Assembly: GCA_002256385.1 (NCBI GenBank) | Contig: NKJD01000009.1 | Coordinates: forward strand, 1 to 64,000 | Source of the DNA: Flavobacterium sp. BFFFF2 | GTDB taxonomy: Bacteria > Bacteroidota > Bacteroidia > Flavobacteriales > Flavobacteriaceae | Direction of reading: 5' to 3' | DNA: 64,000 bases | In this document: piece by piece, positions 105 to 8,457 of the stretch | Layout: each line of letters starts with the position of its first letter | Numbering within the stretch: the first letter of the stretch is position 1 | Made by a program: the position numbers and the translations under genes | The notes under the pieces: generated by a model | Told to the model about the DNA's origin: nothing | The model's database searches: none | The model's input: only the letters and a program-made list of their open reading frames with translations

Positions 105-170
105 CTTACAACGATTATTTTTTCTTTTCACCACAGAATCCCCGCTTGCGTCAACATGATGTTAGCAGAT
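105..170 (-). repeat. Weak attC-like site ending the HigBA cassette
   Basis: On the plus strand the right end reads GTTAGCAG (161-168). This matches the first bases of the same cassette (GTTAGCAG at 931-924 on the minus strand). The left end is CTTACAAC at 105-112. The arms between them pair poorly, so this site is much less certain than the four large ones. Confidence 0.4.
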
Positions 171-177
171 AGTGCCT

Positions 178-483
178 TTACTCGGTTAAACTTAATTTCA
201 AATGTCCACCTAAACCTTGTCTAATTATTCTCATCAAAGTAGAAAGTCGAATATCACTTGCGTTATTTTCTATTTTGGAGATATAAGTTTTAGTTGTTCC
301 ACACTTTAAAGCTAATTGTTCTTGTGTCATTCCACGCTCTTTTCGCATTTCTTGTAACATTACTCCAAGTTCAAAAGTTTCATATTCTTCCTCGTATTTA
401 TCACGAGTTTCAGACCCTTTTTTTCCGTATTGCATATCTAAATGTTCGGCAAATGTTGTAACTTTTTTAATTTCTGTTTTCAT
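178..483 (-). CDS. higA: HigA-like antitoxin, XRE family
   Basis: This 101-residue protein has a helix-turn-helix domain at about residues 41-95, with the usual MTQEQLALKCGTT...YISKIE pattern of XRE/Cro repressors. It lies 5 bp downstream of a HigB-like toxin gene on the same strand. That is the toxin-first order typical of higBA. By family knowledge it would neutralise the toxin and repress the shared promoter. The N-terminal 40 residues are charged and have no recognisable motif. The pair forms one cassette of the array, fitting the known enrichment of toxin-antitoxin modules in integron cassettes. The exact subfamily is inferred from pattern only. Confidence 0.85.
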   Translation of the reverse strand: MKTEIKKVTTFAEHLDMQYGKKGSETRDKYEEEYETFELGVMLQEMRKERGMTQEQLALKCGTTKTYISKIENNASDIRLSTLMRIIRQGLGGHLKLSLTE

Positions 484-488
484 AATCG

Positions 489-842
489 TTACTTTTTATA
501 TTTAGTTTCTAAATACTCTTTTTTTAATTTTTCAGCCAGTTCTATTTCTGCTTTTGGTGTTTTTTGTGTTTTCTTTTGAAATCCGTTTACTAAAACGACT
601 AGATTTCCTTTATCAAAGAAACTAAAAACTCTAAAAATGTCTGAACCAACTTCTACTCTAACTTCAAATATTCCATCCGATCCAGTCATGTGCTTGAAAA
701 ATTTTTGAGGAATTCTATCTTGAGTTGAGATTAACTGTAATGTCCAGTTGAATTTTTTCTTAACGTCTTCTTTTTGAGCGTTAAAAAAGTCAAGATAATA
801 ATCTTCGTAATAAATAATTTCTCTTCTAAATTTTCCATTCAT
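489..842 (-). CDS. higB: HigB-like toxin (RelE/Gp49 family)
   Basis: This 117-residue protein resembles phage-derived Gp49-like HigB toxins. A central stretch reads GIFEVRVEVGSDIFRVFSFF, followed by LVVLVNGFQKKTQKTP and then a basic helix. In this family the conserved Arg of the VR.E..SDIFRVF strand and the F.KK..KTP segment form the RNase core that cleaves mRNA on ribosomes. The gene precedes its antitoxin by 5 bp, so the two are probably co-transcribed. Its start lies about 80 bp from the attC-like site at 923-1060, leaving room for a promoter. Length and motif order are normal, so the gene looks intact. Confidence 0.85.
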   Translation of the reverse strand: MNGKFRREIIYYEDYYLDFFNAQKEDVKKKFNWTLQLISTQDRIPQKFFKHMTGSDGIFEVRVEVGSDIFRVFSFFDKGNLVVLVNGFQKKTQKTPKAEIELAEKLKKEYLETKYKK

Positions 843-922
843 TTAGCAAAGTTATTCAATCAGGTAACATCTGCAAATTTTTTAAATGGAATTTTTCTTT
901 CGCACGATTTTTTTTAGGCATT

Positions 923-1060
923 TCTGCTAACGTTCCGCCGCTTCTCGTCAGTTGCGAAGTTCGGAACGAATTATTTTCTGTTAAAGATAAAAATTCTTGC
1001 GAAACGTAAACGTGAACTTACCACAAAATTCGCAATTGCGAGAAACGGCTGTTAGTGGCT
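923..1060 (-). repeat. attC-like site A
   Basis: This 138-bp imperfect palindrome has outer cores TCTGCTAAC (923-931) and GTTAGTGGC (1051-1059). Inside them the left arm has CGCCGCTTCTCG...GTTGCGAA. The right arm, reverse-complemented, has AGCCGTTTCTCGCAATTGCGAA. The left arm carries 4 extra unpaired bases next to the core, an asymmetry shared with sites B and C. Such extrahelical bases guide strand choice in true attC sites. Confidence 0.75.
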
Positions 1061-1066
1061 GGCATT

Positions 1067-1855
1067 TTATATCTTTTCAAAGTAATCTCCTTTAAATTGA
1101 TATTTTATTTTCTGTTTAGTCAACTTTCCTTCTTCTATAATTAATGGTATAATTATAATTTTATTCTCCACATCATATTTTAACCAAGCATATTCTCTGT
1201 CAACTGAGTTCGGTTCTTGATTAACACTTGACGAAAAGTCTATATCATAGCTTAATTCATTTTTAATTCCAGATTTTGTTTTTATAAGTTTAGCGTTATC
1301 ATTTAATTTTCCGTTTTCAATGCTAAAAATTTTTATTTTATGGCTTGAAACTGCTGAGCTACCAATCGAAATACATTTTACAATATAAAAAGTTTTCTTT
1401 TTTGAGATTACTTGGTCAAGAATTTCATAAGAATAACTACTTTCTCCATATTCATCAACATCTGATAATAATTGTTGAGAAAAGACTTTTTTATTGCTTT
1501 TAAATTGAAATACATTCCTAAAACTTCTCATTGTTCCTCCAGTTTCTGTATCCCAAGAATAAATCCTAAAAAGACTGTTTTTGGATGTTGATATTTCCAA
1601 ACCACTTTTCGTTAAATCTTTAAAGTCAAGAGTTAATGTTTCTGGAAATGAAGATGTACAGTGTAGCAATAGTTTTTCAAAATCTTCATTACTTTTATTA
1701 ATTGAATCGTAAGCAAATTCATTTTTGCCTCTTTGGTCTGTGTAAAATTCAATTTTTTCAAAAGTTTCTTTTAATTTTCTATTACAAGTTTTAATGTCTT
1801 GTCCATAACTTGGAAAAGTTAAGATAGAAACTAAAAGCCATATTTGAAATTTCAT
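1067..1855 (-). CDS. Secreted protein of unknown function (cassette cargo)
   Basis: I do not recognise this 262-residue protein. It begins with a clear signal peptide (MKFQIWLLVSILTFPSYGQ, cleavage after about residue 18), so it is probably periplasmic or surface-exposed. The rest is rich in Lys, Ser and aromatic residues, with alternating strand-like segments and no obvious catalytic motif. The gene fills its cassette: the stop codon is 7 bp from site A, and the start is 29 bp from site B. This tight packing is typical of integron cassettes, which often lack their own promoter. Base composition is very AT-rich, like the other cassettes and unlike the recombinase gene. Confidence 0.75.
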   Translation of the reverse strand: MKFQIWLLVSILTFPSYGQDIKTCNRKLKETFEKIEFYTDQRGKNEFAYDSINKSNEDFEKLLLHCTSSFPETLTLDFKDLTKSGLEISTSKNSLFRIYSWDTETGGTMRSFRNVFQFKSNKKVFSQQLLSDVDEYGESSYSYEILDQVISKKKTFYIVKCISIGSSAVSSHKIKIFSIENGKLNDNAKLIKTKSGIKNELSYDIDFSSSVNQEPNSVDREYAWLKYDVENKIIIIPLIIEEGKLTKQKIKYQFKGDYFEKI

Positions 1856-1883
1856 ATAGTCTTATTTAACGTGATGTATGCTT

Positions 1884-2023
1884 GCCACTAACGTTTCGCC
1901 GCTTGGCGACAGTAGCGGCCTGCGGGAACATTTTTTTCTTCTTGTAAAGATATAATTTTTTCGTAACCGTAAAAGTTGAGTTCAAGAAAAAGTAGCTATT
2001 GCGCCAAACGGCTGTTAATGCTA
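1884..2023 (-). repeat. attC-like site B
   Basis: This 140-bp imperfect palindrome has outer cores GCCACTAAC (1884-1892) and GTTAATGC (2014-2021). Its inner arms are CGCCGCTTGGCG...AGTAGC on the left and GTAGCTATTGCGCCAAACGG on the right. It is very similar to site C, about 500 bp away, over most of its length. It separates the secreted-protein cassette from a repeat-bearing cassette. Confidence 0.78.
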
Positions 2024-2086
2024 GGCGTTTCATCCCAACTTTTTTTTCTCCGTCTTCTTTTTTTTCTTCTTTTTTTTCTTCTTGTT

Positions 2087-2293
2087 CTACTTTTTGATCT
2101 TCTTTTTGATCTTCTTTTTTCTTCTTTTTTCTACTTTTTGTTCTTCTTTTTTTTCTTCTTGTTCTTCTTTTTGTTCTTCTTTTTGTTCTTCTTTTTGTTC
2201 TTCTTTTTGTTCTTCTTTTTGTTCTTCTTTTTGTTCTTCTTTTTCTTTGAATAGACTCAAATATTTCAAAGTTTCCAACGTTCTACGCGACAA
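2087..2293 (-). CDS. Possible small KEEQ-repeat protein (cassette cargo)
   Basis: The open frame begins MSRRTLETLKYLSLFKEK and continues as a run of KEEQ tetrapeptides encoded by a 12-bp tandem repeat. It ends in a poly-lysine stretch. The product would be a highly charged coil with no known function. A sister frame at 2551-2739 shares the first 17 residues with one change, but the DNA around both frames is equally conserved, so protein-level selection is not shown. It may equally be a non-coding cassette. I give it low confidence as a gene. Confidence 0.3.
   Translation of the reverse strand: MSRRTLETLKYLSLFKEKEEQKEEQKEEQKEEQKEEQKEEQKEEQEEKKEEQKVEKRRKKKIKKKIKK
2156..2245. repeat. 12-bp tandem repeat (TTCTTTTTGTTC)
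   Basis: About seven near-perfect copies of a 12-base pyrimidine unit lie inside the cassette between sites B and C. On the minus strand one unit encodes Lys-Glu-Glu-Gln. The tract is flanked by less regular TTCTTTTTT sequence. Its length probably varies between strains by slippage. Confidence 0.85.
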
Positions 2294-2396
2294 AAATTCA
2301 ACGCAAAACTATTCAATCAATTGTTGTTCAAAGCAGGAGCGGAGTTGACCTGCCAAAGTTCCTGTAATGAAAAATTAGTCCTAAAAAAAACGCTTG

Positions 2397-2534
2397 GCAT
2401 TAACGTTTCGCCGCTTGGCGTCAGTAGCGGCCTGCGGGAACATTTTTTTGTTCTCGTAAAGATAATAGTTTTTCGGAACCGTAAAAGTTCAGTTCAAAAA
2501 AAAGTAGCTATTGCGCCAAACGGCTGTTAAAACC
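2397..2534 (-). repeat. attC-like site C
   Basis: This 138-bp imperfect palindrome has outer cores GCATTAAC (2397-2404) and GTTAAAACC (2526-2534). Its inner arms match site B closely (CGCCGCTTGGCG on the left, GCGCCAAACGGCT on the right). The cassette it ends begins TTAATGCC but finishes with TTAAAACC, the weakest self-match of the series (6 of 8). Confidence 0.75.
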
Positions 2535-2550
2535 AGGCGTTTCATCCCAA

Positions 2551-2739
2551 CTATTTTTTCTCCGTCTTCTTTTTCTTCTTCTTTTTCTTCTTCTTTTTCT
2601 TTTTCTTCTTCTTTTTTTGTTCTTTTTTTTGTTCTTTTTTTTGTTCTTTTTTTTGTTCTTTTTTTTGTTCTTTTTTTTGTTCTTTTTTTTCTTTGAATAG
2701 ACTCAAATATTTCAAAGTTTCCAACGATCTACGCGACAA
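2551..2739 (-). CDS. Possible small KKEQ-repeat protein (sister cassette)
   Basis: The open frame begins MSRRSLETLKYLSLFKEK and runs into KKEQ tetrapeptides and poly-lysine. It is a sister of the frame at 2087-2293, but with a different 12-bp repeat unit. The flanking DNA of the two cassettes is nearly identical, which points to a recent cassette duplication. Whether either is translated is unknown. Low-complexity composition rules out any functional assignment. Confidence 0.3.
   Translation of the reverse strand: MSRRSLETLKYLSLFKEKKEQKKEQKKEQKKEQKKEQKKEQKKKKKKKKKKKKKKKKKTEKK
2616..2691. repeat. 12-bp tandem repeat (GTTCTTTTTTTT)
   Basis: Six copies of a 12-base unit, one C-to-T step away from the unit at 2156-2245, occupy the same place in the sister cassette. 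All copies within this tract are almost identical. This suggests that the whole array was homogenised or regrew after the cassettes duplicated. Confidence 0.85.
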
Positions 2740-2842
2740 AAATTCAACGCAAAACTATTCAATCAATTGTTGTTCAAAGTAGGAGAGGAGTTGACTAGCT
2801 AAATTTCCATTAATGAAAAATTCTTTCTAAAAAAAACGCTTG

Positions 2843-2977
2843 GCATTAACGTTTTGCAGCTACCCGAAGGGCGGGACTTTTACCACAAAACTTGATTTGA
2901 AATACAAATGTTTGATTAACCACAAAACTGTCTTTGGAACACGAAACCCCGCCTTTTGGGTAGGTGCTGTTAGGTGC
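2843..2977 (-). repeat. attC-like site D
   Basis: This 135-bp imperfect palindrome closes the restriction-modification cassette. Its outer cores are GCATTAAC (2843-2850) and GTTAGGTGC (2969-2977). Its arms are GCAGCTACCCGAAGGGCGGG on the left, pairing with CCCCGCCTTTTGGGTAGGTGCT on the right after reverse-complementing. The arm sequence is unrelated to sites A-C, yet the layout and the 4-base asymmetry are kept, as expected for attC sites. Confidence 0.75.
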
Positions 2978-3029
2978 TGGCGTTTTGTCTGTCGTTGCTC
3001 TGTTGTCCATTGTTTACTGCTGTCTTGGT

Positions 3030-3113
3030 GCGTTGGCTTGGTAGCTCTTTTGCATTTTTTAGCGGTGGTTTGTGTTTCGGAAAAAATGCAAATGTGCTAC
3101 CAAAAGCGTTGGC
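3030..3113. repeat. GCGTTGGC palindrome beside the restriction genes
   Basis: The left arm TTGGTAGC-TCTTTT-GCATTTTTT pairs with the right arm AAAAAATGC-AAATGT-GCTACCAA, with a TCTTTT/AAATGT internal mismatch. A GCGTTGGC box lies at each outer end (3030-3037 and 3106-3113). The right end touches the stop codon of the last restriction gene. A related copy with its arms in the reverse order lies at 6517-6589. Confidence 0.7.
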
Positions 3114-3577
3114 TATTTGAATAATTGTTTCGGGTCAAATTGTATTTTAATTGTCTTGTTTTCGTGATAGAATATTGCAAAGTCAATTTTGTCTAAATGC
3201 AGATTAGTTTTTTGTTCTGTATTGTCTGAATGAACTAAACCAACACCGTAAAGTATTTTAGAATATTCAAATTCTGCTAAAAGTCTCACAATAGAGTTTG
3301 AGTAATCATTATTATTCCTTAGGTCTTGAACTTTTATAAAGTCGTCAAGTAAAAACCTGTCTTTGTTTTCAAAGAAAATTACAGTTCCGTTTTTTATTGC
3401 TACAATATCAGGTATAAATGCCCCTTTATTTTTTGTAGTTCTTAATTCTTCGTTTGGATGCAATGAAACACCAGTACCACTTTGTGGAAAGTCAAAGCAA
3501 ATGATTTTCCAATCATTCGCTTCAAGCCAGTCAAGTATGGCTTTTGTTGCTTGTTCTTCTGTTATGCGTCTCTCCAT
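3113..3577 (-). CDS. PD-(D/E)XK restriction endonuclease subunit
   Basis: This 154-residue protein has a textbook PD-(D/E)XK nuclease motif: P56-D57, then E70-N-K72 after a hydrophobic strand (IPDIVAIKNGTVIFFENKD). An upstream helix with Glu (EEQATKAILDWLE) fits the usual first helix of the fold. It is the last gene of the restriction-modification operon and overlaps the 3' end of the 410-residue gene by 16 bp, so the two are translationally coupled. By context it is the cleavage subunit, or half of a two-protein restriction enzyme. The recognition sequence cannot be inferred. Confidence 0.75.
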   Translation of the reverse strand: MERRITEEQATKAILDWLEANDWKIICFDFPQSGTGVSLHPNEELRTTKNKGAFIPDIVAIKNGTVIFFENKDRFLLDDFIKVQDLRNNNDYSNSIVRLLAEFEYSKILYGVGLVHSDNTEQKTNLHLDKIDFAIFYHENKTIKIQFDPKQLFK

Positions 3578-4794
3578 AATGCACCGTCTGGGAATAATAT
3601 TGCGTCAGCAAAATATGAAAATACTCTAATGTGTTTTACTTTAGAAAACATTGAACCGTAACGAACTTGCATATAATATCGTGGAATTTCACTACTTGGA
3701 ATATCATCATAATCTTTTGTCAATAGATTTTTTCCTTCGCTTGCTTTAACAGCGTTTACAAAATCGTGAACAGTACTTTTATCGCTATCAATTGTAAATG
3801 TTTCTTCTTCCTCATCTATTTCAAGATTACCCCAACACATTACAAGATTATATTTTCTTTCTTCAAATGTTTTTCCTTCTCTGCATAATAAATAGTCTAT
3901 TGCAGCTAATGCTCCGGGATAAGGGTCACCTCTGAATGTTGCATCTACTTTGTATATAATTGTTTCTTCTCTACTTCTTAAAAGTTCGCCAATTTCGTAA
4001 TTTTTGTTTTCGTATTGCGATAGATGATTTAATAAGTATTCCGTTGGTATTTTAACTGTTGCAGTTAGTGGCGACATATTGTCGTTACCGCCTTTAGTTG
4101 CAAATTCTTGTTGCATTAATGTTTTACGAGTACTTAAAATTCTTTTTCCAAGTAGTTTTCCTCTACCTTCGATAACACCAGATTGTTCAACAACTGAAAT
4201 TATTTCATTGATTGCATCGAACATTAAAATCATTTCGGAATGAGTACTGTCGGGACTACCTGCGAAGTTTCGATTGCTATCATATTTCAGCCCTTTATTT
4301 CTAATGTTTGGTGATGTTTGAGCATTAGAATGTGTACGGAAATCGGAAGGGAAATAATAAAGTAACGCAGGTATTTTATAGATGGTCATTACATCTTCCA
4401 TTGCTTTAAAAACAAGTGGATTTATTTTGTCCCATTTTGGAGGTGTGTTTTGCCTTGTAATGATTGCAGCTTCTGGATAAATATAAAATGCAGGCACATC
4501 ATTTTCAACTGATGCCGCAAGTCTTGCAAATCGTTGAAATGCATTATGTCCTGTTCCTGCTTCCGTTGATACTTCAATAGAAAATATTGGCTCTGTGTCC
4601 AGTTCAACTATTAAATCAGGTGCGTCTAAATAAAGGATTTGCTTTATATGGTCAGGCAATGAATGAAAATTCTTTGCATTGTTTGCATCGCTTTCATACA
4701 TTTTTTTCTTGACAACATTTTTATTCCTAAGGTTCGTTTTTGCTATTACATAATCTGCAAAACTTTCGGTGCTGTACCAAACTCTATAATTCAT
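3562..4794 (-). CDS. Restriction-system protein, putative nuclease-like subunit
   Basis: This 410-residue protein lies between the methyltransferase and the small nuclease gene and overlaps both (4 bp and 16 bp). Residues 59-76 read PDLIVELDTEPIFSIEVS. This looks like a PD-(D/E)XK core in which the usual Lys is replaced (E74-V-S76). The following GTGHNAFQRFARLAA helix is also of the type seen in such folds. The remainder has no motif I recognise. It may be the recognition subunit with a degenerate nuclease domain, or the active enzyme with a migrated catalytic residue. I infer the restriction role mainly from the operon. Confidence 0.6.
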   Translation of the reverse strand: MNYRVWYSTESFADYVIAKTNLRNKNVVKKKMYESDANNAKNFHSLPDHIKQILYLDAPDLIVELDTEPIFSIEVSTEAGTGHNAFQRFARLAASVENDVPAFYIYPEAAIITRQNTPPKWDKINPLVFKAMEDVMTIYKIPALLYYFPSDFRTHSNAQTSPNIRNKGLKYDSNRNFAGSPDSTHSEMILMFDAINEIISVVEQSGVIEGRGKLLGKRILSTRKTLMQQEFATKGGNDNMSPLTATVKIPTEYLLNHLSQYENKNYEIGELLRSREETIIYKVDATFRGDPYPGALAAIDYLLCREGKTFEERKYNLVMCWGNLEIDEEEETFTIDSDKSTVHDFVNAVKASEGKNLLTKDYDDIPSSEIPRYYMQVRYGSMFSKVKHIRVFSYFADAILFPDGALWRDA

Positions 4795-6059
4795 ATATAT
4801 TTTTTTATTGCTAATGCTACTGCCTTTGCTAACAAAGGTGGAACGGCATTACCTGTTTGAACTCTACCTTGTACAATTCCACCACTAACAATAAAGTTAT
4901 CTGGAAAACTTTGTAATCTGCATCTTTCTCTTATACTCAAACCCCTGTTGTCTAATGGATGTCCGAATTGAAATTGAGGTCTAATTCCTCCAGAAACTTG
5001 TGTAGGACTTTGAATATCCCAAGCTAAACGAATTCTTTGTTTGAACTTTGGATACATCGGAGTACCTGGTTTTGTGTTCTTAATTTTTTCAATTACTTCT
5101 TTAGGATGATTGGGTGCTTTATGATTAGTTAGCTTATCATCTTTCAAATTTTTCCGCATTTGCTTTTGATATTCACTAAAAGGTTCTTTCTTATATTTAG
5201 TAATAATTTCATTTGGCTTTAGACTTGGTAGGTCACCAATAGCATCTTTAACTGTGACATAAGGTTTTTTAGTTTCTGGTCCGTGTGTTTTTTTAATTTC
5301 AGAAAAGTCGAATTCTTCGCCATCTCTAATTCCTACGAAAACTAATCTTGTTCGTGATTGCGGTACACCGTAATCTGGTGCAAAAAGCAATTTGCTTTTT
5401 ACTTTCATATTTCCTGCAAGGCTTAAATCTTTTTCAATTGTTTTCACAAAATCGCCTGTACTTTTCATTCCAGAAACATTTTCTAAAACAACTACTTTGG
5501 GTTTCAATGCTTTTACAAAACGAATAAACTCTTTATAAAGTAAATTTCTTTCATCGTCTTCGTGTCTCTTTCTATTATTCAATGAGAAACCCTGACAAGG
5601 CACTCCACCAATTAATACATCAACTTGTCTGCCGTCTAAAAGCTGTAAAAATGATTTTGGATTTACCTTTCTAACATCACCTAAAACAGTTGAAACATTC
5701 GGATGGTTAGTTTTAAATGTATTTATTGAAGGCTGGTGTATGTCACAACCAATAGCAATTTCAAAACCAGCTAATTCAAAGCCTAAAGAAGTTCCGCCAC
5801 AACCACAGAACAATTCTACAACAAGGGGTTTGTCATTTGCTGGAAGTTTACCTTTAGTTATAAATGGTTCGCCTTTCCAATAATATCCATTTTCTTCAAC
5901 TTTAACGGATTTATCCCAAACACTAATTTTATCAATTGCATCAAGGTCTATGTCGTCTGGATTTTCTCCTATTCTCAATTGATACGCTTCTTCTTCAACA
6001 AGAGTTAGAACATCGCTATCAATTTCTTTGTATGGTTTTATTTTTGCTTTTGTTGGCAT
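4791..6059 (-). CDS. DNA (cytosine-5-)-methyltransferase
   Basis: This 422-residue enzyme carries the ordered C5-methyltransferase motifs. They are the SAM-binding VVELFCGCGGTSLGFELAGF (80-99), the catalytic PCQGFS with Cys155, ENV at 193-195, QSRTR at 234-238, a target-recognition stretch of about 100 residues, and TGNAVPP at 402-408. It transfers a methyl group from S-adenosylmethionine to carbon 5 of cytosine at the host's recognition site and so protects it from the neighbouring endonuclease. The N-terminal 78 residues are an extension without a motif. All key residues are present. The gene follows the regulator by 5 bp. Confidence 0.93.
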   Translation of the reverse strand: MPTKAKIKPYKEIDSDVLTLVEEEAYQLRIGENPDDIDLDAIDKISVWDKSVKVEENGYYWKGEPFITKGKLPANDKPLVVELFCGCGGTSLGFELAGFEIAIGCDIHQPSINTFKTNHPNVSTVLGDVRKVNPKSFLQLLDGRQVDVLIGGVPCQGFSLNNRKRHEDDERNLLYKEFIRFVKALKPKVVVLENVSGMKSTGDFVKTIEKDLSLAGNMKVKSKLLFAPDYGVPQSRTRLVFVGIRDGEEFDFSEIKKTHGPETKKPYVTVKDAIGDLPSLKPNEIITKYKKEPFSEYQKQMRKNLKDDKLTNHKAPNHPKEVIEKIKNTKPGTPMYPKFKQRIRLAWDIQSPTQVSGGIRPQFQFGHPLDNRGLSIRERCRLQSFPDNFIVSGGIVQGRVQTGNAVPPLLAKAVALAIKKYI

Positions 6060-6064
6060 AACAA

Positions 6065-6376
6065 TTAGTTTTTTACTTTTTTATAATATTTGATTTTTTC
6101 TTCGGCAACTTTCAAGATGTCTTTTGTGCAATCTTCTTCCATAATTTCATAAGCAACTTTGTCACTTAAAAAGGAAACAAGAAGCGGTTTTGAGTTAATT
6201 GAAAATATTTCAGCAAATTTCTCAATCATTTCTTTATTTGCTGTTCGCTCGTTCCTTTCAATTTTTCCAAGTGTAGATGGGTCTATGTCAAGATGGGCTG
6301 CGACTTTTCTAAGAGGAAGTCCGCTTTCTTCTCTTAGTTTTCTAATTACCTCACCAAATGTTTCTTTCTGTACCAT
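6065..6376 (-). CDS. XRE-family controller of the restriction operon
   Basis: This protein of about 103 residues has an N-terminal helix-turn-helix (GEVIRKLREESGLPLRKVAA, then STLGKIERNER). It is the first gene of the restriction-modification operon. I chose the start at MVQKETFG. A longer frame reaches 6427 but would run through the promoter and operator. By family knowledge such controller (C) proteins delay endonuclease expression when the module enters a new host. The C-terminal 40 residues (EEDCTKDILKVAEEKIKYYK) form a charged helix not seen in minimal C proteins. Confidence 0.82.
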   Translation of the reverse strand: MVQKETFGEVIRKLREESGLPLRKVAAHLDIDPSTLGKIERNERTANKEMIEKFAEIFSINSKPLLVSFLSDKVAYEIMEEDCTKDILKVAEEKIKYYKKVKN

Positions 6377-6394
6377 AATTAATTTGTTTCGGGA

Positions 6395-6428
6395 CAAATA
6401 TAGTCCAAATATTAAATGTCCTGACAAA
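6395..6428 (-). promoter_or_regulatory. Promoter and candidate operator of the restriction operon
   Basis: On the minus strand TTTG (6428-6425) and TATATTTG (6402-6395) are separated by 22 bp, matching the Bacteroidetes -33/-7 promoter form. The interval and its right flank contain inverted-repeat pieces (GGACAAATATAGTCC and TGTCCTGACA), a plausible binding site for the adjacent XRE protein. Operator function is inference. Confidence 0.6.
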
Positions 6429-6516
6429 TTAAAAGTAATAGAAACTAAAATTTTATTAACAGTATTTCAACGTCACAATTTGTCGGGTGGTGGGTGGGCT
6501 TTGGGTGCGGTTGGGT

Positions 6517-6589
6517 AAAATTAAATGTGCTGCAAAAGCGTTGGCTTGTGTGTCTGCTTGCAGCTCTTTTAATTTTGCGAAGCGTTGGC
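6517..6589. repeat. GCGTTGGC palindrome, permuted copy
   Basis: The arm AAAATT-AAATGT-GCTGCAA comes first here and TTGCAGC-TCTTTT-AATTTT second, each followed by a GCGTTGGC box. This is the reverse of the arm order at 3030-3113. The internal mismatch TCTTTT/AAATGT is identical to the other copy, while the paired segments differ and remain complementary. The two copies bracket the restriction-modification genes. Confidence 0.65.
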
Positions 6590-6645
6590 TTTTTCGTCCT
6601 TCGTTTCTGGCGGTTTATGTCTGCTCTGTCGGTCGTCCTACGCTT

Positions 6646-6690
6646 GCACCTAACTCGTTTATATCTACAAATATATGTAACATTTTTAAA
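6646..6690 (-). other. Candidate attI (primary insertion site)
   Basis: A single core reads GTTAGGTGC on the minus strand (6654-6646) and sits 37 bp from the recombinase stop codon. It equals the core of site D (GTTAGGTGC), as expected if the first cassette was inserted here. The adjoining AT-rich stretch (6655-6681) contains a loose inverted repeat, GTTTATATC/ATATATGTAAC, that could bind recombinase. No second large palindrome is present, which fits attI rather than attC. Confidence 0.5.
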
Positions 6691-8457
6691 TTATGGTTCA
6701 GGCAATAAATCTTGATTGAGGTTGTTGTGCCAACGATCTAAGGGGCTTTGAATGTGGTTTACGGCACTTTTGGTAATGTGGGTATACAGCGTGGTGGTTT
6801 TAATGGAGGCGTGTCCTAAGAATTCTTGAATGTAACGAATGTCTGTGCCACTTTCTAGTAAATGAGTAGCAAAACTATGACGGAGTGTATGTACGGTCGC
6901 CTTTTTTTGGAGCCCCGATCTTAAAATGGCTTTTCGCATCACCTCTTGTGCGCTGCGGGTGCTGTAGGGTTCATGGGCGTATTGGCCATCAAAAACGTAC
7001 GTGTGTTTAGGATACATTTGTCTAAAAAATTTAAGTGATTCCACCAATGAAAAGGGGAGCATCACCATTCGGTCTTTTTTGCCTTTGGCATTTTTTACAT
7101 GAATTTTATGCTCGTCGAACAGGATGTCTTTCCATTGCAAATTCACCATTTCACTCACCCGAAGTCCGGCGCCATATCCCAATAGTAATAACAACTTGTG
7201 CTTTGGATTGACAATAACATCAAAAATCCTTTTGCACTCATCAATGGTGAGTACGGTGGGTAATTTCTTTTCTGATTTGGGCCTCGGTAAGCGCAGGTCA
7301 AAACTATTTTTTCCCAAAACCTGCACATAATAAAACTTGATGCTATTAATCAATGTGTGCCCCGAGGCAGAAGACAACCCCTTTTCCATTAATGAGCCCA
7401 AGTAGCTGATCATTTCTTTTTGTGAAATGGTTTCAGGATCTTGAAAATCAAAATGCCGCAAGAATTGAGCCCATGCAGTGGTGTAAGTTCGCAAGGTATT
7501 CGTGCTATAATTCAATGCCAAAAGATAATCAACCATATTACTGATCCAAGGAACACCCTTTTCGGGGATGTGTTCAAATAGATGCTGCTTGGTTCTTGTC
7601 AAATCGAGGCTTTTCCGATTGGGCAATTTTTGGGCATGCAAATAGGAGGGAGGCAATTGATTAATCAATGTGAGTTCCAATGAATCAATCAATAGTTGTA
7701 TACCTTCAAAAATAGCAGGTGCTGCTGGCAACAGATAGCAATCTTTTATTTTGCTGTATCGGGCACTGGCCAAACGCTTGATGGCTTCATGAGCCACTAC
7801 TTTTTTCGGAACAAATACTTCCATCCAATTGTTGTCTTCGGCATGTGGCCTGACAGTCAATTCTTCGCCTTTTAAGTTGGTTTCAGCTTGGTAATAGTCT
7901 GAGCCAAAAAAAGAATTTGTTTGCAAAACAGCCTCCACTTTTCGTTTTACATCTGGATGTCGAAAAACCATGTACACCTTGTAATTGCTGTTCCAGTAAA
8001 CCCCTTTAATGGCCAATAACTGTTTACTTATTTTGGCGTGATAATTCATTTTGAAAACCCAATATTTACCTACGTTTTTCAATAATTGAAGTTTGGCCGA
8101 GTGGGCAAACGATGTGTTCATCGTTTTATGATCAGTATCAAGTGCAGGTTCAGCGCTCAACTGATGGGTGCTATTCGCTATGGGTGAAAGGTCACGGCCT
8201 TGTATGCCGGTCACCGCGGGCAAACTTTCAATGAAGGGAGGGGTAGAATCAATTATGATCTCTTTAAAATGTTGTTTCAGCAAAGTATATGCATCGGAGG
8301 TATAATCTACATACCAACACGAATGCGTTTTGCTGTACTTTGCATGCATTTGTTTCACAATGGCATTTTTCTCTACATCGCGTGGATAGCGAATCCCAAT
8401 ATAAAATATGCCATTAAGCCACAATTTGAAAATAGTAATCACCTTTTTTTTAAGCAA
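6691..8457 (-). CDS. Tyrosine recombinase, integron-integrase-like with long N-terminal extension
   Basis: This 588-residue protein has a C-terminal tyrosine-recombinase domain with all catalytic residues: R433 (GAGLRVSE), a beta-hairpin Lys near 460 (AKGKKDR), H523 and R526 (HTLRHSFATHLL), H549 (LGHASIKTT) and the nucleophile Y558. It ends YTHITKSAVNHIQSPLDRW, close to the SPLD tail of IntI proteins. A SAM-like core-binding domain lies at about 316-385. The spacing R433 to H523 is 90 residues, like XerD and unlike IntI1 (about 130), so the IntI-specific insertion is absent. Residues 1-290 hold three degenerate modules of about 70 residues with aromatic/basic patterns. Its 3' end abuts the cassette array. 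Confidence 0.88.
   Translation of the reverse strand: MLKKKVITIFKLWLNGIFYIGIRYPRDVEKNAIVKQMHAKYSKTHSCWYVDYTSDAYTLLKQHFKEIIIDSTPPFIESLPAVTGIQGRDLSPIANSTHQLSAEPALDTDHKTMNTSFAHSAKLQLLKNVGKYWVFKMNYHAKISKQLLAIKGVYWNSNYKVYMVFRHPDVKRKVEAVLQTNSFFGSDYYQAETNLKGEELTVRPHAEDNNWMEVFVPKKVVAHEAIKRLASARYSKIKDCYLLPAAPAIFEGIQLLIDSLELTLINQLPPSYLHAQKLPNRKSLDLTRTKQHLFEHIPEKGVPWISNMVDYLLALNYSTNTLRTYTTAWAQFLRHFDFQDPETISQKEMISYLGSLMEKGLSSASGHTLINSIKFYYVQVLGKNSFDLRLPRPKSEKKLPTVLTIDECKRIFDVIVNPKHKLLLLLGYGAGLRVSEMVNLQWKDILFDEHKIHVKNAKGKKDRMVMLPFSLVESLKFFRQMYPKHTYVFDGQYAHEPYSTRSAQEVMRKAILRSGLQKKATVHTLRHSFATHLLESGTDIRYIQEFLGHASIKTTTLYTHITKSAVNHIQSPLDRWHNNLNQDLLPEP

Follow-up and report, generated by a model that had tools for sequence, protein, structure and literature searches.

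The recombinase and the cassette array in the window

The stretch of DNA analysed here (the window) comprises positions 1 to 64,000 of contig NKJD01000009.1 of Flavobacterium sp. BFFFF2, and its left end was found to contain a tyrosine recombinase gene followed by an integron-like array of gene cassettes. Integron-type cassette recombination at this array is strongly supported: a recombinase, an attI-like core, four complete sites, a tie of unit starts to their own ends and, in relatives, duplication of whole units bounded by CGTT were all observed directly. The array is oriented leftward on the minus strand, from the recombinase gene (6691-8457) to the contig start (base 1), and consists of four complete cassettes and a fifth of which the body is present, all on the minus strand behind the recombinase gene. 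Its features are listed below, where R1 is a covariance model built from 64 sites, the four of the window among them.

6691..8457, minus strand: recombinase, tyrosine type, 588 amino acids (PF00589, 1.1e-38; PF13495); catalytic residues, no IntI insertion; TTG start as listed, start codon uncertain
7573..8457, minus strand: N-terminal part of the recombinase, residues 1-295, three beta-beta-alpha-beta-beta-alpha repeats in AlphaFold models
6652..6690, minus strand: attI-like region with the GTT core (6654-6652) at its end; conserved behind related recombinases; holds TATATTTG
2851..6654, minus strand: cassette 1 including its site; own arms match, gene families identified
6065-6427, minus strand: cassette 1 gene, helix-turn-helix (HTH) protein (family match)
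4791-6059, minus strand: cassette 1 gene, cytosine-5 methyltransferase (family match)
3562-4794, minus strand: cassette 1 gene, putative restriction endonuclease (family searches)
3113-3577, minus strand: cassette 1 gene, 154-amino-acid protein (open reading frame, ORF)
2848..2971, minus strand: site 1, AAC...GTT (R1, 91.1 bits)
2405..2850, minus strand: cassette 2, of low complexity, without a clear gene; own arm 6/8
2402..2528, minus strand: site 2 (R1, 86.5 bits)
1893..2404, minus strand: cassette 3, a diverged copy of cassette 2 (repeats D4 and D6); own arm 8/8
1890..2016, minus strand: site 3 (R1, 84.0 bits)
932..1892, minus strand: cassette 4, with a gene for a 262-amino-acid protein (1067-1855) and its site; own arm 8/8
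929..1053, minus strand: site 4 (R1, 115.3 bits); 80-98% identical copies in many related genomes
161..931, minus strand: cassette 5, Gp49/RelE-ParE-like toxin (489-842) and HTH antitoxin (178-483) (family matches); own arm 8/8, outer arm 161-175

The four complete sites are 124-127 nt long. A search of the 64 kb with R1 (E ≤ 1) returned, besides these sites, only their own weak reverse complements (18.8-25.5 bits). The original prediction, made from the sequence of the window, had described a recombinase gene, one attI-like core and five segments each ending in a palindrome with GTTA cores; the gene, the core and four R1-scored sites were borne out, but the fifth segment shows the outer arm at 161-175 only, and no complete fifth site was found by R1 before the contig end. 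It had also matched the first 8 bases of each segment with the reverse complement of its own terminal core, and its values were reproduced for segments 1, 2, 4 and 5 (8/8, 6/8, 8/8 and 8/8), whereas the third is 8/8 and not 7/8.

Cassettes 2 and 3 represent the same low-complexity cassette in two diverged copies, with pieces 85% and 89% identical; this region (1890-2850) carries 12-nt low-complexity repeats whose minus-strand codons are those for lysine, glutamate and glutamine. Two short contigs of the source genome (L073, contig C99; L075, contig C107) are made up largely of cassettes; assembly probably broke the array at its repeats. At the contig start, positions 39-103 hold an inverted repeat whose 22-nt arms, 95% complementary, are separated by 21 nt, perhaps a terminator or an assembly fold-back. 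An Rfam scan of the window returned one tRNA, and a synteny search with the four genes upstream of the recombinase gave no matches in 16 loci.

The attI-like GTT core lies 36 nt past the recombinase stop codon. In the loci examined, the first cassette is directly preceded by a recombinase relative, and the attI-like stretch that separates the two is conserved; this order, a feature of the integron platform, is found in the window and its relatives alike. In loci with the long form of the recombinase, a shared stretch ends in ..GATATTTACTA/GTT, or nearly so, 26-48 nt past the stop codon; short-form loci share ..TATA.A.AA/GTT-like ends farther from the stop codon. The motif TAnnTTTG is the -7 promoter consensus of Bacteroidetes. 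It was found in 7/9 long-form attI-like regions versus 63/1677 background stretches of 60 nt, and the window region contains TATATTTG as a candidate promoter element. This element could be a cassette promoter. In the short-form attI regions of L053, L054, L060 and L061, two TATA-rich motif copies tens of nucleotides apart seemed present by eye, although a pattern count did not bring them out clearly; they are perhaps accessory binding sites.

Cassette ends, predicted folding and duplication of whole units

A scanner for the hairpin layout was run on the window and 21 related stretches, and 13 of these 22 hold sites. It gave 72 sites on the recombinase strand against 5 on the opposite one, and a single site in a Markov shuffle (268 kb). 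After removal of one likely chance site among the 72 (L049:15896), own start/end pairs matched 6/6 at positions 4-9 in 51/61 cases versus 18/564 for non-own pairs of the same locus, in agreement with the earlier claim that each segment start is tied to its own end beyond chance; the tie is general across these loci. Among the ten own pairs that fell short, four scored 5/6 (window cassette 3 among them) and window cassette 2 scored 4/6; one has a masked N at one end (L055), one looks like a one-base shift (L051), and three (L041, L042 and L047) span intervening sites later detected by R1. Complementarity between start and end extends over 15 nt (GTT + 12) and falls to background at position 16. 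At arm position 11, A was found in 52/52 pairs, facing C in 45. Pairs below 5/6 were excluded from this profile, so positions 4-9 are selected and positions 10-15 unselected; the A·C position was not a selection criterion here or in the folding count given below. One further locus, found separately by protein search (L008), holds a single 6.6-kb restriction cassette whose 15-nt arms differ at position 11 only. Two recombinase relatives with long flanks (L044 and L052) had no sites by R1 or the arm rule.

Site length was 116-132 nt in the scanned set, and some further R1 sites span up to 189 nt. In an alignment of 64 sites, all 16 pairs predicted by RNAalifold showed compensatory changes. Two mismatches are nearly fixed, T·G at columns 21-141 (52/64) and A·C at columns 30-131 (58/64); on the bottom strand the outer and inner A·C become T·G, and the T·G at 21-141 becomes A·C. 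When the own start was joined to the end by script, the bottom strand was predicted to fold better in 148/149 unique cassettes (mean folding energies with own arms joined, bottom -31.7 and top -27.1 kcal/mol, DNA parameters), a count from which cassettes with fewer than 5/6 own matches, and then 8/157 unique cassettes with arms below 11/15, were excluded. In control stretches of cassette bodies the bottom strand was better in 26/137, and the site interior alone had little strand bias (44/71). The same 149 cassettes have A at position 11 without exception, with C opposite in 131. Recombination through a folded bottom strand is a prediction of these models.

Whole cassettes were found to be copied as units at the R' core in three related genomes. 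Nine cassettes occur at 100% full-length identity in two or three places in the closed genomes G044 and G118 and the draft genome G046, where overlapping fetches of one place (L042/L067 in part, and L068/L069) were not counted as duplications. In 15 copy pairs, identity continues 1-9 nt before the start and 3-12 nt past the end; over the 100 nt beyond, identity between the copies is 25-87% to the left and 26-43% to the right, and the two pairs above 80% on the left are those in which related sites precede. Because C and GTT are common to the sites, the exchange point is placed inside CGTT. Arrays in the closed genomes are long, with 55 sites in 36 kb in G118 and 34 sites in 42 kb in G044, each set on one strand beside a recombinase relative. 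Cassette contents and sites also recur apart from each other: the toxin-antitoxin (TA) genes of window cassette 5 have 85% identical counterparts in G109, which follow a different site and lie about 3 kb from a recombinase relative on the same contig; the gene of the 262-amino-acid protein of cassette 4 (78%) adjoins other sites in other genomes; and copies of site 4, 80-98% identical, are found in many genomes without its neighbouring gene.

The original prediction had named two contrary outcomes, a fixed segment order with no insertions or deletions at the predicted points, and sites with no single-strand fold. What was found, in relatives rather than in strains of the source species, were whole-unit copies bounded by CGTT, and a covarying single-strand fold in 64 sites. 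Both outcomes thus favour the prediction, and the proposal of insertion of circular units by an integron-type reaction is supported by these results, by the arm rule and by the relocated TA genes.

Palindromes of this kind are widespread. R1 matches at 1e-6 were found in at least 125 of the 199 genomes of a relatives set that includes the source genome, a survey in which at most 17 candidates were scored per genome with stricter filters, so that its site counts are floors. Such abundance would also be expected of passive repeats, either similar to repetitive extragenic palindromes (REP) or miniature inverted-repeat transposable elements (MITE) or acting as terminators, that spread without cassette recombination. 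However, the spread of repeats would not tie the start of a unit to its own end, no 15-nt limit with a near-fixed mismatch would be expected, and a gene and its site would not be duplicated as a unit ending in CGTT, unless the closed-genome duplications arose through faulty assembly. On the own start/end rule and the CGTT-bounded duplications we reject this explanation as highly improbable.

The recombinase family and its relation to integrons

Pfam search of the window recombinase identified PF00589 and a SAM-like domain, and its R, K, H-R, H and Y catalytic positions align with those of IntI1. A passage of PMC9668308 gives an additional domain around patch III as the criterion of an IntI; in our alignment this insertion was present in 6/6 IntIs but in 0/11 recombinases of the window family. 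The best NCBIfam match of the window protein is TIGR02249 (integron integrase), at 216.7 bits against a cut-off of 265, and 7/7 family proteins tested scored 199.4-221.7 bits, all below the cut-off. The earlier description of the enzyme as an integron-type recombinase is therefore not supported as worded, as the enzyme is not an IntI by the usual criterion, and a canonical IntI integron in the strict sense is rejected for this locus on the same two results.

The likeness to integrons is nevertheless extensive. It covers the tyrosine recombinase, the attI-like first core, cassettes of the form GTT...AAC, palindromic sites, whole-unit duplication, a bottom-strand fold that is predicted here to be favoured, and mixed defence-like cargo. 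The sites of the window family have the AAC...GTT boxes, the palindromic form and the length range of attC, for which excerpts of PMC2727003 give 57-142 nt. Several differences were found. The recombinases lack the IntI-specific insertion and have N-terminal repeats. The own arms of attC are continuous over 9-11 nt in the same excerpts, while the arms of the window family are 15 nt long with an A·C mismatch at position 11. Lastly, the two or three extrahelical bases that attC carries on its R''-L'' arm are absent from the aligned structure, in which the L'-R' arm holds the unpaired bases (columns 133 and 147-150) and the R''-L'' arm has mismatches.

IntI loci of the same phylum were scanned for comparison. 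Position 11 of their own arms is paired in 79% (28 pairs) and pairing declines beyond it, which agrees with the 9-11 nt given for attC; this was a scan of both strands with stem 6 in which palindromic pairs may count twice. A scan with stem 8 gave no pairs, and short IntI loci may hold no attC. Applied to 252 kb surrounding 14 IntI genes, R1 returned a single match, a weak one of 30.4 bits. The 'atypical' chromosomal integrons of Treponema have an IntI. One member of the window family, G021, has its recombinase divergent from its array (L064, G021:C1:2187000-2206900; recombinase gene on the plus and sites on the minus strand), which is the layout of typical integrons and unlike that of the window.

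XerA-type recombinases (NF040815; PDB 5hxy and 4a8e) share the catalytic fold and a comparable score. NF040815, named 'site-specific tyrosine recombinase/integron integrase', was passed by 2/2 short-form recombinases, but the window protein, three other long forms and a Rufibacter form (191.9-205.4 bits) fall below its cut-off of 220. To our knowledge cassette arrays are not part of the XerA-type family.

These scores bear on a further alternative, in which the system belongs to the integron lineage proper, its enzyme being an IntI that lost the insertion or predates its gain and its sites being long attC. It is favoured by TIGR02249 as the best NCBIfam match, although below cut-off, by IntI 2a3v as the best PDB match, by the words 'integron integrase' in the name of the family that both short forms pass, and by a statement in part of PMC8138268 that the insertion is not fully conserved in an integron-like subgroup. 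With the insertion missing throughout the family and the sites differing from attC as above, we regard this origin as rather unlikely.

We class the locus instead as an integron-like system that belongs to Bacteroidia and is set apart by a recombinase branch and a site grammar of its own. The claim that only an integron-type recombinase predicts the observed pattern was too narrow, since a different branch of tyrosine recombinases seems able to do the same kind of thing as IntI. Judged from sequence, the adjacent XerA/IntI-related recombinase very probably handles the cassettes as circles, which it inserts, excises and copies by acting on single-strand DNA folded into hairpins. In the mechanism that we envisage, the bottom strand of a site would fold so that the 15-bp outer arm and the inner stem stand in for a double-stranded core site; the recombinase would join this hairpin to attI by one strand exchange in CGTT, replication would resolve the product as in integrons, and new cassettes would enter at attI downstream of the candidate promoter inside it.

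The N-terminal module is present as three repeats in the long form of the window and as one copy in each of 11 aligned short forms. The AlphaFold models of the repeats have mean predicted local distance difference test (pLDDT) values of 76.7 and 82.0. Comparison of structures and families gave no nuclear magnetic resonance, crystal or family match that settles their identity; the likeness found, to the XPB damage-recognition, SMARCAL1 HARP and MutS mismatch domains, rests on weak matches to domains generally known as readers of distorted DNA. Because the IntI-specific insertion is missing, we propose, as the most tentative step of the mechanism, that these repeats may read the hairpin, perhaps at the near-fixed A·C of the top strand, which is T·G on the bottom strand. 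The closed genome G044 has the short-form recombinase twice; its second copy (C1:3275999-3277039) has one stop codon inside the match. G111 likewise has two copies.

Distribution and cargo

The source genome contains 34 R1 matches (E ≤ 0.01), at least one of which is the reverse image of another. In the relatives set, the recombinase family was detected in 78/199 genomes (1e-50), and at least five sites were found in 53/78 genomes with a recombinase versus 18/121 without. The 121 genomes bear on the possibility that the cassettes are mobile but moved by another enzyme, host XerC/XerD or a recombinase elsewhere, the adjacent gene having another role: 53 of them have at least one site and 15 at least eight, and the source genome itself encodes other tyrosine recombinases. 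Against this stand the recombinase relative directly before the first cassette, the conserved attI-like stretch between the two, and the rise of site number with recombinase presence, and we consider movement by another enzyme improbable.

In a sample of the class, the recombinase family was found in 130/247 Bacteroidia genomes and 82/135 genera (E ≤ 1e-45), not all of which need have arrays. In twenty class-wide loci, the recombinase strand carried 30 arm pairs and the opposite strand 1, with at least one pair in 14/20 loci, and 35/35 R1 matches were on the recombinase strand; as the arm rule applied here and to the plasmid below included the A·C position, the evidence lies in the strand contrast only, and some of the arm-rule hits (L138 6177, L146 8543) look like chance. 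On the plasmid of Rufibacter tibetensis (NZ_CP012644.1; L109 11386-18300), a 484-amino-acid recombinase relative is followed by small ORFs on the same strand, with three start/end pairs that fit the 15-nt arm and A·C rule and sites of roughly 70 nt that R1 missed. The system is therefore also plasmid-borne. IntI above the TIGR02249 cut-off was found in 84/296 genomes of the phylum, all but one of them outside class Bacteroidia.

A wider proposal, which we advance tentatively and with less than even confidence, is that a second, independent build of the integron exists across Bacteroidia, in which a XerA-like recombinase acts on single-stranded hairpins and the insertion is replaced by tandem mismatch-reading domains (XPB/HARP/MutS-like) that recognise the fixed T·G of each folded site, so that much of the gene exchange of the class would pass through cassettes that present integron finders overlook. 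If cassette arrays of this kind, dozens of units long and with much defence-like cargo, are at work throughout the class, they would make up a large route of gene exchange that has gone unrecognised. What a tyrosine recombinase needs for recombination of single-stranded hairpins becomes testable in a system that lacks the insertion regarded as essential in IntI, and the 15-nt arm rule with its near-fixed A·C / T·G position offers a simple search rule and clear mutational targets. A search of the open-licence PubMed Central literature, with preprints outside its scope, found no description of such arrays, which does not imply their absence from print.

As for cargo, the 262-amino-acid protein of window cassette 4 had no Pfam or NCBIfam match, and the putative endonuclease of cassette 1 had no PDB match up to E 1. 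Among 157 unique cassettes, the longest ORF runs along the array direction in 135 and against it in 8, and 14 are without an ORF of 60 amino acids. PADLOC matched 125 models to the cassette proteins, several of them hitting one and the same protein. In Pfam, 136 cassette proteins match 44 families (E ≤ 1e-5); among the 25 families listed, 22 match one protein each and GmrSD matches two, and the list includes AbiH, AbiGi, SLATT, Mrr, AlwI and cytosine methylase.

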